This document shows positions 8,871 to 58,572 of a DNA stretch of 64,000 bases, one piece after another. Below the pieces are notes generated by a model that was given only the letters and a program-made list of their open reading frames with translations, did not search any database and was not told where the DNA came from. Each line of letters opens with the position of its first letter. Position 1 is the stretch's first letter. Location: positions 33,732,501 to 33,796,500 of the forward strand of contig NC_088927.1 in NCBI RefSeq assembly GCF_038396675.1, read 5' to 3'. This DNA comes from Hydra vulgaris. Lineage: Eukaryota > Cnidaria > Hydrozoa > Anthoathecata > Hydridae. The translations under genes and the position numbers were made by a program.

Positions 8871-10150
8871 AAGTTCTAAATTGAGGATTTCTGATAAGAG
8901 AAGTTTTAAGCCTATTAATGATCTAAACCTAAGATTTCTGAAAAATCTGTTTATGATTAAAAAAAAATTTACCTTATGAACATTGATGTTGCAAGAAATT
9001 GTTTCTACATCCTAAAGACTCTAAGTACAAAGGAACTAACAGCATTTTTTTATAGAGCTACCTTGTTTTGAAACTCTCTACATAATATATACATAAATTG
9101 TTAATGCGAACGCCCAATATTAAAGAAACATTTACAAGGATTGAATTTTACTGTCAATTGAAATTGGTGGCCATCAAAACAAAGCCTCTAAAACAAATTA
9201 ATATAAGCGTCAGCACAATGAAAATCGCCAACGGTTTTTGTGTTGATCTCAAAACAAATTATTTTCATTAATAATAGTGCACAAGGAACCTACTACAATG
9301 AACAGTAACGAAAACAAACAAACAAAAAAAGCTGAATATATTTGGAACATCAACGAACATATTAAAAATTGCCATCTGATAGTCTGGTTGGATAAAACAA
9401 ATTAAAAATTTGTTGTTGAAAAATGCAGGGACGCGCTTGACAAAGAAGAAGAGCAACAATGAAAATGTCTGCTTCAAAACGTTCAAACAATTATTTGATT
9501 GCAGCTATATCAACAACTAATTCTGTCATAATAAAAATTCAAAAAAAGATCATTTAATACAGATTCTTGACTGTTCTATCAGTGAATTACACCAGGGATT
9601 CGTTTATAGGATTTGGTAGTTTTAGCAGACAATGTTTCTTGCCACGCTCGTTTGGAAAGTAGTGTTTGGGATCTTACCCAAACACTACAACTGATATAAG
9701 TAAAAGTAACGATACAAATGCGAATCACCTTCCACCTGTATTAGGTGCTGGGATGGTGGAAAAATAAACACAATAGTAAGAAAGTATTATTACTATAGAA
9801 AAAAGTACAACAATCTGATGTGACTGTGCGCGTGCTGAACAACAAACAACTAGCGCTTGCTCTAACTTTGACTCCGAACAATACGAAAAATAATTAGGGA
9901 AAATTTATTAGCATTTTCTGTTTACACACTTTAGTTGTTTTTAGTTTTGTTTCTGGCGTTTTTATTTGAATTTTAATTTATTGTGCGTAGTTTTTTCTAC
10001 CGTTGGTATGGTAAGTGATTTATTTAATTATTTTTACTTATATTGTGCAGTAGATTAACACTTTTCATATCATTAAAAAAATATTAGTGCTTTACAAATT
10101 TGGGTATGGTTGGGTTTTGGCTATTTGTAGTGAATCCTTTTTTACTGCAG
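8871..10150. other. Gene-poor stretch
   Basis: Degraded sequence with no reading frame I can assign. The only structured item is the short hairpin at 9659-9688. G+C is somewhat higher near 9600-9900, possibly an old element, but no protein motif is recognisable. Confidence 0.5.
9659..9688. repeat. Inverted repeat, 12-bp arms, 6-nt loop
   Basis: GTAGTGTTTGGG, loop ATCTTA, then the exact reverse complement. One of a set of short-loop hairpins in this window. Confidence 0.85.
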
Positions 10151-10193
10151 TATGGAATAGGCGTAAGTCCCCGCGACTTACGCCTATTCCATA
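10151..10193. repeat. Perfect inverted repeat, 19-bp arms, 5-nt loop
   Basis: TATGGAATAGGCGTAAGTC, loop CCCGC, then its exact reverse complement. The arms are richer in G+C than the surroundings. No gene explains it, and there is no U-tract typical of a terminator. Confidence 0.95.
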
Positions 10194-10929
10194 AATTATG
10201 TAAAGCATAAGTGACGATGACGTTTGTCTGACGGGATAAACTAGTTATAAGTGCTGATCCTCATCGAAACGCCAGTAATAATGGACGTGACTCTGAGGAG
10301 ATGTTTATTACTTAATCACTACACAAATTATGTTTACACATTGGCATTAATGTTTTTTTTCCATTCTGAGGCCTTTCATTATTGTTTGCATACTTTTTAT
10401 TTTTTTATGTATTTTTTGTTTTATTTACTTTTTGTTTGGTGATATATTTTTTGTTTATCTTAGTTCATATTAGTATTTATATAACAATTTATTTATTATT
10501 ATTATTGTTAGTACTGTTTGGGTGCATTGTCTGTCTTATTTTAAATATTCCTCTATTAATCTTTATTTTTGTCTTGACAACTGTCAAAATATGCTTTGTT
10601 TGAAAAATAATTCTCCTTAATTCTAATGTACTTCATTTCTTCCCTCAGGCGTTCACTGCTCGTGTGTGACCATTCGGCAAATTTTATATATGTCAGAATT
10701 ATATATATGCCAAAGTTTATAAATAATATTGGGCCTAGCCCGTAAGGGTTAGTGTTACGGTCATCGAGCACGACTATTTTCCTAAATCACAATTACTGTC
10801 ACCGCGAAAGAAGTTGTTTGTCTCTGGAAGACGCATGGGCTAGTTTTCTAGTCATAAGTCAGTTATAAATCCATGCATAGGTGTTTAATCCATCATGGTT
10901 TTCTGAAGTATGACTGGGCTGGCTTGGTG

Positions 10930-10937
10930 TATATAAG
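10930..10937 (+). promoter_or_regulatory. TATATAAG, candidate TATA box of an LTR-like promoter
   Basis: TATATAAG is followed about 40 nt later by a C/A-rich region and, at 11080-11085, by AATAAA. This promoter-to-polyadenylation spacing would fit the R region of a solo LTR. No reverse transcriptase or paired LTR is near, so this stays speculative. Confidence 0.3.
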
Positions 10938-11304
10938 AGATAAATCTTTTACGCCGGTTACTAACAACACAAGACTCTACTGAACGACATAAACAGCACG
11001 GACTTACACATTACACCTATACACCCTTATGCACATATAGCCTTTTTACATCTTTTGCATGCTTTTTGTTCTGTTATATAATAAACTATCTTTGTTTGAA
11101 CTCATTCTTATTTAGGTTATATTTTCTTTTAATATATAGTATGTGGTTGGAATGTTAAATGCCGATTTGTATGTTATGTATATGTGGTTATCATGTGTGA
11201 TTGTTTTTTCATTTTAGGATTCATATAAATATATATAAGAGCGTATTTTTTTGACTAGCGGCTTTCGATATGTTTTGTTGATGGGACGTCTTTTTGTTTT
11301 TTGT

Positions 11305-11440
11305 TATGGTCTCAAAATTACGTTTAATTCGGACCGTAGAGAAAGCTTTACTTTTTCGGAAACTTCGATTTAGATATGGTCTCAAAGTTACCTTTAATTC
11401 AGACCGTAGAGAAGACTTTACTTCTTAAACAATATTTTTC
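11305..11440. repeat. 70-bp tandem duplication
   Basis: TATGGTCTCAAAATTACGTT (from 11305) and TATGGTCTCAAAGTTACCTT (from 11375) begin two diverged copies that stay alignable through GACCGTAGAGAA and CTTTACTT. The period is 70 bp. Confidence 0.8.
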
Positions 11441-56121: not shown

Positions 56122-56223
56122 GATATATATATATATATATATATATATATATATATATATATATATATATATATATATATATATATATATATATATATAT
56201 ATATATATATATATATATATATA
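56122..56223. repeat. (TA)n microsatellite
   Basis: Pure TA tract of about 100 bp. Confidence 0.97.
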
Positions 56224-57210
56224 TTAGTACTTATAAAAACTTGTAAAAAAAGGTGATTAATTTGCTCACAATATGTTGTGACTCTATATGGTATTTAGAT
56301 ATGGTTCAATAATTAATCATGCTTTTAGTTTATTTTAATAATTTTTATAATTACTTGTAAAAAATGTTATTAAAAATGTTTTGAATGCTATCATAGAATA
56401 CCCGGCATTATTTAGCAAGGATGAAAGAAAAGGAAAAAGTAAATTTACGAGCACTCCTTATTATAAATGCATAAAAGGCGATTGAATGCGCGTTTGTAGC
56501 TATTGCATCTTATATAAGACTAAAATATTTTTGTTAACAGTAAATAGCAGAACGTGAAACAGCAGTACAATGCTCATTTTCTCCTATTCATTATTTGCAT
56601 ATATATTTGTAGTCGTTTTTTATTTTAATTTAGTTTTTTTATCTATGACTTTCCAAAACTAAAAACAAGTACTTTAATATAAATTTTTATTGTGGATGTC
56701 GTTTGTTGATTTTTTGGAAATCAAATTCAAAAGCAAAGTTTATTTACTTTGCTTTTAAATTTAATTGTTTTTTTTTTGGTTTTCTAAAACATGCTCTATG
56801 ATTGACAGACAATTTTGTGATAAATATTATTTCTTTAGAAACTATTGTTGGTGACAAAATTGGTTATGATGCAACCAACATCGAGGGTACCATTGGCGAC
56901 ATATTAAAATGAGCCAAAAAATAATGTTTTTGCTAAATTGTATTTATATATTTATACTATCAAAAATATTACTCTTTTTATTTTTTTTGTGATGAATTGT
57001 GTCAATACTTGGATTTAATTATTTATGAAGTAACCTTATTATTATCCTAATGAGGGTTGCCACTCGTGTTGAATCCAAAAAACACGTGTGTATTAAATTT
57101 AGGCTTTGTGGGAAAAAAAAAGACTTCATTTCTTATACCAAGACTCCATTTTTTATATTTGCAAGAAATGGAGTCTGTATGAGAATGAGCTGAATAAAAC
57201 TAAACGCTGA
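56224..57210. other. Gene-free stretch
   Basis: No supported gene or repeat structure. Confidence 0.5.
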
Positions 57211-57415
57211 ATGAATGGGCAAAATATAGACGTCCAAAAGCGTCTATTGTGGACCACTGAATGGACTGTTTTGGACGCCCTTGGACTACTTTATATGTCT
57301 AAAATGGACGGACGAAAGTCATTGCATTTGGTTCGTTTAATCGACGTTCATTTTGGACGTCCGAACGAACCATTTTGGACGTCCATGGACGTACTATGGA
57401 TGTCCGTGTGCCCAT
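57211..57415. repeat. TGGACGTCC-rich field
   Basis: GGACGTCC, TGGACG and CGTCCA recur about a dozen times in both orientations within 200 bp, without a fixed period. It gives a chance frame. It resembles the AACGTT MITE in style: many copies of one short palindromic word. Confidence 0.75.
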
Positions 57416-58523
57416 TGGAAACACAGGCAGTGGCAGTAAGCAAAACAATACCATTTAGAATATTTGCAATTACTGTGTCTAGTTTTTCAGAGCCTTCTAT
57501 ATAATACCAATCACTTGGATTAAGATTAGATTCAATTGAAGATTTTTGTTTAGAATTGTGTCTATAAATTTAATGTTGGGTACATTAATGTCTAAAACAG
57601 AAAATTATAGTTTAAGTTTTAAGAGGATAATAAAAACAGGTTGAACCAATGCTTAATAAAAAGTATTGAATACCTTTTTTCTATACTTAATATTCTCTGA
57701 ACCAATAACACACTTTCTTTCACCTTCCTGATCTTCCAGAAATTTTTAAATCTTCAATCTTGTTTCTTAGTAATCTTTTTTTATTTTTACTGATCATGTT
57801 TTTAAAATTAGAATTACCAGTCAAAAGAGTTCTTTTTATTTCAATCTTAAAAATGTTTTGTTTAGTTAAATCACCACTAGTTCCTCTTTTTGCCTTTTTT
57901 TTCAAGTTGGAATGTATATTACTTATGCAAATTTTTTTTGACTAAACTTAAATTAGTTAACACTTTAAATCCAGCTTTAATTTAGGGTCTTAATTTAGTT
58001 TAGAATTATTAAAAAATACATTTTTAAATTTGTTTTTACAAAACATGGGTATCCATAAACTGCTGATTTAGGACCCTAACCTCCTTTGTACGCACCTATA
58101 TACTTTGACCCCCACTCCTCCCTGCGTACGTACGTACACTTGATGAGCTATGTCAAAGCTTGAGACAGAATGAAAGGCTCTTTCAAAGATTACGATTGAT
58201 TAAACAAATTTCACTATGCCAAAGCGTACGCATTCAGTGATTAAGTATATATATATGAAACACAATGGATTACTCGGCTTCAATTTATACATATTTTTAC
58301 TTGCTTTCCTTTGACTTATGCCATTGTTTGATCATATCAAACAATATCATACAAATTTGCAGTTAAACTTACCACAATCAAAGTTAGTAAAATAGTATTA
58401 TAGTGTATTGAAAAGTTCAGTATTATAGTGTATTGAAATCTCTAGTATTTAAAAGTTTTGAACTATTTGGAAATAATAGTGTGGCAGTTAAAAAAAGATT
58501 TAGCTTAAAGCAAGATGAGTTTG
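57416..58523. other. Gene-free stretch
   Basis: No recognisable coding sequence. A CGTACGTACGTAC run lies at about 58124-58137. Confidence 0.5.
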
Positions 58524-58572
58524 AATTCATTCGAATCACTCTTGAAGATGTCAAGAGTGATTCGAATGAATT
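58524..58572. repeat. Perfect inverted repeat, 22-bp arms, 5-nt loop
   Basis: AATTCATTCGAATCACTCTT(GA), loop AGATG, exact reverse complement. It lies in a short frame (58433-58678) whose product is not recognised; the second arm may be an inverted duplication of the first. Confidence 0.96.

Follow-up and report, generated by a model that had tools for sequence, protein, structure and literature searches.

Private hairpins in a 64-kb window of Hydra vulgaris DNA are very probably scars of short-range fold-back synthesis

The 64,000-nt stretch of Hydra vulgaris DNA analyzed here (positions 33,732,501 to 33,796,500 of contig NC_088927.1; hereafter the window) carries inverted repeats with long arms and very small loops. 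Those that are private, in the sense that one arm is lacking in related copies, are very probably scars of short-range template-switch (fold-back) DNA synthesis, which is a known kind of mutational event. An earlier note, made from the letters of the window, had listed nine such repeats, and all nine were found where it placed them. Six are private (9659, 10151, 13226, 35125, 35218, and 58524, with weaker evidence for 9659, 13226, and 58524), two belong to transposon families, and one has no useful relative. The proposal that they arose by a snap-back of a 3′ end or a template switch is backed by paralogs in which the site is empty and already has a short stem. Same-form hairpins are also present at other places in the genome, in agreement with the idea of a genome-wide process. 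The further idea of an active system making short inverted duplications went unsupported: each private hairpin is a copy of its own flank, deletions or filler mark several of the junctions, and no sign of an active element was seen at them, no search for target-site duplications having been made.

Results

Perfect inverted repeats were counted against shuffled sequence. In the window, with microsatellites masked, 10 repeats with an arm of at least 11 bp and a loop of 5–7 nt were observed, whereas 0.25 were expected from the mean of 20 order-2 Markov shuffles. No repeat with an arm of at least 11 bp was found at loops of 3–4 or 8–12 nt in the masked window. Written as arm/loop, the hairpins are 9659 (12/6), 10151 (19/5), 13226 (20/5), 17617 (12/6), 24573 (19/5), 29701 (14/6), 35125 (37/7), and 58524 (22/5), together with two that the earlier list did not hold, 56729 (11/6) and 30811 (14/6). 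The last is AT-rich and lies within an 18-bp tandem repeat, and was given no weight although it is among the 10.

A larger set of 329 kb joined the window to loci from many places in the genome, with families collapsed and six order-3 Markov shuffles as control. Left out of these counts were low-complexity arms, repeats with an identical inner 12 bp, the loci that are window sequence (L001, L031, L066, and L068), and every locus from L076 on. The sample is not random, since outside the window it consists mostly of flanked copies from two repeat families. It held 25 repeats with an arm of at least 12 bp and a loop of 3–9 nt (0.67 expected), 18 of them at 5–7 nt, and 20 with an arm of at least 14 bp (0 in the shuffles), 14 of them at 5–7 nt. 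Other loop lengths were in excess as well, with 7 versus 0.33 at 0–2 nt, 10 versus 1.0 at 10–16 nt, 12 versus 2.3 at 17–30 nt, and 17 versus 3.5 at 31–60 nt. The density per nucleotide of loop length was greatest at 5–7 nt (18 over three lengths). Therefore, the uniform loop of 5–7 nt first described survives as a peak but is too narrow as a rule, since the excess extends over 0–2, 3–9, and 10–60 nt, and a strict 5–7 nt loop was rejected. Five 10-kb stretches taken at round coordinates contained four repeats with an arm of at least 12 bp and a loop of 3–9 nt (L061 and L065 with two each, L062–L064 with none). Loopless perfect palindromes at L072:2770–2805 and L074:649–680 (arms 18 and 16) form a class apart from the small-loop hairpins.

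Comparison with relatives showed which arm is new. What was gained reads as the reverse complement of ancestral sequence close by (at 35219 with small gaps and mismatches), and a one-arm ancestral state was found in relatives for six of the nine listed hairpins (three through distant relatives only) and for five hairpins elsewhere. At 10151–10193 the right arm is new and is followed by AATTAT filler. The right-hand anchor was recovered in 27 of 29 other loci; the left-arm core was found nearby in 20, and neither the right-arm core nor the whole core in any. Its loop reads CCCGC where the ancestral sequence has the reverse complement, GCGGG. At 58524–58572 the right arm is ancestral, the left arm is new, and the loop AGATG is retained. 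Three relatives (L067, L069, and L070; 72–73%) run through the right arm without the left arm, and L067 has at the site a 5-bp stem, TTTAA-AGACG-TTAAA, that is not in L069 or L070. The hairpin at 13226–13270 likewise combines an ancestral right arm and a retained loop with a new left arm. Its relatives are distant only, L080 (83% over query positions, q, 194–290) and L081 (69% over q57–271); both match the right arm, and a stem of 3–4 bp is present at the site in L080 and L081 (TGA with 5 nt or TTGA with 4 nt between). A 23-bp tandem duplication at 13187–13236 overlaps the left arm and may be part of the same event. At 9659–9688 the left arm is ancestral and the right arm lies within 29 nt that replace ∼75 nt of the paralogs. 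Thirteen of the 39 other scored copies match in two pieces flanking the site; six of the 13 break at q169 and q199 with 73–75 nt between, and the remainder break elsewhere, with 65–123 nt between. Four of these paralogs (L076–L079) were aligned and are ∼25% diverged. The loop could be assigned to neither orientation. A Helitron 3′ end was considered and dropped for this site because paralogs run through both flanks.

The pogo-like element at 34.9–36.6 kb carries a double fold-back. In 38 of its 39 other scored copies, the match extends to ∼q265 and resumes from ∼q371 with 0–26 nt between. The same jump, with 0–27 nt between, was seen in 28 of the 29 fetched copies; the other, L021, does not cover the site. 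Since the sister copies join ∼q265 to ∼q371 nearly directly, the window copy carries a 105-nt insertion, which begins with the first hairpin's right arm, continues through a short junction, and ends with the left arm of the second hairpin. In the left half (35125–35205; arm 37, loop 7) the left arm is ancestral and the right arm inserted; the junction (35206–35218) belongs to the same insertion. The right half (35219–35346) is a gapped hairpin of ∼60 bp around the loop AACAAGA, with an ancestral right arm and an inserted left arm, and it grew from GCAGC-AACAAGA-GCTGC. The hairpin first reported near 35218 is thus present with a 7-nt loop and roughly 60 bp of arm, but it is not perfect. Such a double fold-back could be explained by a double-strand break, both ends of which would have folded back before joining.

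A second event in the same element, at 35416–35470, is a fold-back filler, a ∼19-nt inverted copy of the preceding sequence at TGAAG-GTA-CTTCA. Between q550 and q570, 27 of the 29 fetched copies have ∼180–190 nt, compared with ∼19 nt in the window. As to the exceptions, L002 aligns unbroken, its own stretch being shorter, and L021 does not reach this part. The apparent 17-nt loop of the hairpin at this place is more plausibly a stem with a 3-nt loop and one mismatched step.

Outside the window, five hairpins, each confined to one copy of either the pogo-like element or a second repeat, were read against sister copies: L009 (26/5), L012 (26/7), L030 (14/3), L011 (17/7), and L039 (61/4). No anchored copy contained the whole hairpin core of 10151 (0/27), 35125 (0/19), L009 (0/23), L012 (0/16), or L039 (0/20). 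One site, TGAAG-CTTCA, served twice in independent events, in L030 and in the window copy. A further hairpin at L039 2470 (arm 23, loop 4) was not counted as polarised because the copies contain nothing that matches its far flank; at L039:2470–2640 the stretch is copied once more, directly, after the fold-back, as two rounds of switching would do. L075 1191, whose relatives are ∼74% identical, was left out.

Other hairpins are shared by families. The one at 24568–24620 was inherited with a Tc1-type transposon family: all 40 scored copies (window included, as in the two counts that follow) match the whole query at 97–100%, with 40 self-complementary matches. The one at 29696–29739 (q67–110) was inherited with a young repeat family, all 40 copies matching about q1–211 at 99–100%. 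This family, at 29630–29840, is very young, its 39 other scored copies being 99–100% identical and ending at about query position 211. The hairpin region at 56723–56762 is common to a repeat family in which 15 of 40 copies score as self-complementary; all 40 are within 13 nt of the query length, so that no copy lacks an arm. At 17617–17646 one other match was found (76% over q162–235), beside the hairpin; a Helitron 3′ end was dropped here as well, no family having been found. The statement that the hairpins have unrelated sequences therefore holds for the private ones, but not for 24573, 29701, and the unlisted 56723, which are repeat-family features.

These three family hairpins fit the view that many small fold-back transposons or miniature inverted-repeat transposable elements (MITEs) left the hairpins behind, and longer inverted repeats such as 48395–48560 look MITE-like. 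The private hairpins, however, copy the flank of the host element and differ each time, and their insertion starts at or within the loop. The same hairpin recurs in many family copies at 24568 and 29696, and partly at 56723, but the private cores of 10151, 35125, L009, L012, and L039 do not. An origin from such elements is thus extremely unlikely, and a single MITE family was rejected since the private hairpins copy their own flanks. It is hardly credible that the hairpins are assembly errors or long-read fold-back artefacts, since two families have same-form hairpins in every one of their 40 scored copies. Moreover, arms of 12–61 bp with local filler and deletions are unlike chimeric fold-back reads. 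Selection could also have retained the hairpins as small-RNA precursors or other functional hairpins, and their form does resemble short-hairpin precursors. No Rfam match reached the gathering score, so known RNA genes were rejected, and most polarised hairpins are private, in single copies of repeats; we give this explanation next to no weight.

Loop orientation was judged for ten events. Seven retain the ancestral orientation (13226, 35219, 35416, 58524, L011, L012, and L030), and three, 10151, L009, and L039 (L039-911), have loops that are the reverse complement of the ancestral bases. Short stems of 3–6 bp are found at the site in relatives of all seven orientation-keeping events, among them GCAGC with 7 nt between (4 of 29 copies), TGAAG with 3 nt (the 35416 motif, 19 of 29 fetched copies), AAGC with 3 nt (16 of 28), and CAGATA with 7 nt (15 of 28). 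Among random 3′ ends, 6.1% have a stem of at least 4 bp with a loop of 3–7 nt, and 16.9% at a tolerance of ±2 nt. Which arm is new, which sites had a stem in relatives, and how the loop is oriented are thus direct observations, and a pre-existing short stem probably primed the copying.

Priming from a 3′ end, the argument on loop size, and the choice of polymerase (below) are steps that we infer. A few terminal bases of a stalled or broken 3′ end would pair with a complementary stretch 3–7 nt back on the same strand, usually as a 3–6 bp stem already in the sequence. The paired end would then prime synthesis and copy roughly 10–60 nt of neighbouring sequence in reverse. After release, 0–5 nt of homology would let the strand rejoin either its first template or the opposite end of the break, sometimes with filler or the loss of up to ∼190 nt. 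The loop of 5–7 nt would be the small loop that a short DNA stem tolerates. Exits read from the alignments show 2 nt of homology at L009 (far side) and L012, 3 nt at L011 with ∼190 nt lost, and 5 nt at L030 without change of length; filler of 12 nt is present at L039 and of 6 nt at 10151.

A simple intrastrand snap-back was rejected as the route for all events, because three loops are inverted. In this minority, the 3′ end would have to cross to the other strand a few nucleotides ahead (inter-strand switch); our own alternative is that a short 5′ overhang might close into a hairpin. According to the part of PMC7954356 that treats switch points, a switch is not intra-strand when the second point lies ahead of the first. 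By this logic the three inverted-loop events need the other strand, or closure of a 5′ overhang.

The scars could quite possibly have a narrower source within fold-back synthesis, namely polymerase-theta end joining with snap-back at double-strand breaks rather than template switching in replication. Consistent with this, 35416 and L011 combine a loss of ∼180–190 nt with inverted filler and little homology, and two fold-backs meet at one point at 35125–35346. The genome encodes polymerase theta; its polymerase domain was found in L083 (E value 7.5e-122 to the polymerase theta structure 8ef9). On the other hand, Ku is also encoded, and nothing was lost or the length was unchanged at 58524, L039, and L030. 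The combination of a deletion, a flank-templated insert, and little homology was found at 35416, L011, and in outline 9659, but not at those three. In addition, the inserts of 37–61 nt are nearly error-free and exceed the worm theta inserts, which in the portion of PMC5068794 used here are mostly <25 bp and error-prone, with snap-back a minor part (figure S7 legend). Yeast offers a different enzyme, since short inverted repeats near a break prime fold-back synthesis by polymerase delta there, as far as the relevant sections of PMC10622511 describe. Taken event by event, the double fold-back without sequence loss suits a break with both ends folded back, the deletions suit end joining, and the loss-free events suit replication switching equally.

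The frequency of fold-back was estimated from 57 copies (94.4 kb), with window copies excluded and substitutions taken from FastTree terminal branches. Four single-copy hairpins with an arm of at least 14 bp (L009, L012, L030, and L039) were found per ∼2,834 private substitutions, or one per ∼700. One further copy of the second family did not enter the set. Of the 1,658 substitutions in that family, about one third come from the outlying branches L041 (0.124) and L042 (0.231). A 16/9 hairpin common to L047 and L054, the weaker ones of L009 (11/9), L007 (10/9), and L018 (11/18), and L011 644, which is outside the aligned range, do not enter the rate. Poisson limits on four are about 1 to 10 events. 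With ape substitutions of about 6e7, the corresponding ape figure is one event per ∼15,000, from callers that differ from this analysis. The ape events number 4,017 in the part of PMC7954356 that reports them. Tentatively, then, fold-back mutations with long perfect arms might be far more frequent per point mutation in the Hydra lineage than in apes, perhaps 20-fold or more. If so, many of the new inverted repeats and small deletions, and of the potential precursors of short hairpins, would come from such events, which might stem from a special way of treating 3′ ends in a stem-cell lineage that is long-lived and largely asexual. This suggestion is kept tentative because it rests on small counts and on different callers, because two branches are outliers, and because a window picked for its hairpins led to the families, even with window copies excluded.

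The window has a G+C content of 28–29%. It contains a Polycomb RING-finger gene (451–1188), a protein with a weak, sub-cut-off match to the BAR domain (6511–7263), and several DNA-transposon genes, including a Tc1-type transposase ORF on the minus strand (23275–24318). Apart from the hairpins, a MITE-like inverted repeat lies at 48395–48560 (74-bp arms, 18-nt centre) and a long CAACGTT-rich inverted repeat at 41121–41308. Tandem arrays of 22 bp are common to 37588–37989 and 40726–41120 in opposite orientation. A 296-bp inverted copy (91%, largely TA microsatellite) relates 4560–4854 to 6087–6380, ∼1.2 kb apart, and a tandem repeat with a 42-bp unit (4.5 copies, 94% matches) occupies 29280–29469.

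Discussion

Several observations weigh against reading the private hairpins as fold-back scars. The polarity is less certain at 9659, 13226, and 58524 because their relatives are distant (about 64–83% identical). The 5-bp stem of 35219 is intact in just four of the 29 fetched copies (L004, L005, L019, and L030), and the 35125 loop ATGTAAA fits neither orientation. For 35125 and L039, no anchored copy had the exact 14-nt core of either arm, so that the polarity of both rests on alignments; substitutions account for the missing cores at L039 and probably at 35125. The hairpins at 24568, 29696, and 56723 are family features and uninformative on new events. Longer-loop inverted repeats also exceed the control in the 329 kb, some of them probably transposon ends. 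Finally, the sequence is compatible with synthesis either in replication or in break repair. Fold-back synthesis nevertheless remains our strongly favoured account of the private hairpins.

Because abundant young transposon copies each record the state before the event, fold-back mutations can be polarised within one genome. Priming stems, loop orientation, and exit points can be read directly from the element copies, so that the polymerase behind inverted duplications, and the intermediate at a break or fork from which they arise, become open to study; so far this step is better understood for chromosome-scale events in yeast and cancer. A rate that proved truly high would also provide a ready source of new hairpin RNAs. 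What is new here, if anything, may be this rate, on four events. Literature searches returned nothing on fold-back mutations in Hydra, although a published account may still exist, and the main text of the Hydra genome paper (PMC12220107) nowhere uses "inverted," "hairpin," or "palindrom."

The closest known system is the short-range template switch in the four-point model of Loytynoja and Goldman. In the portions of PMC7954356 that concern us, as in Hydra, the new segment is a reverse-complement copy of adjacent ancestral sequence, often giving a perfect inverted repeat in one event, and both intra-strand-compatible types and types needing an inter-strand switch occur. The Hydra arms of 12–61 bp, in a set selected on arm length, compare with a median copied length of 12 in great apes, and the apparent Hydra rate per substitution is higher. 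Template switching that creates RNA hairpins, as presented in sections of PMC8794818, is alike in that a new stem arises by one insertion with support from relatives. However, mammalian microRNA and rRNA genes are concerned there, and four-nucleotide loops are enriched among instantaneous compensatory changes, whereas the Hydra peak is at 5–7 nt. Theta-mediated end joining, to the extent covered by the same part of PMC5068794, shares flank-templated inserts at deletion junctions with little homology, but the Hydra inserts are longer and cleaner, and some come without a deletion, while snap-back is minor in that system. Polymerase delta fold-back priming in yeast also starts from short natural inverted repeats, which in the relevant sections of PMC10622511 are 11 bp and imperfect with a 6-bp spacer or, also in wild type, 5 bp with a 35-bp spacer. 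The yeast events extend to chromosome-scale inverted duplications, whereas those in Hydra stop after tens of nucleotides.

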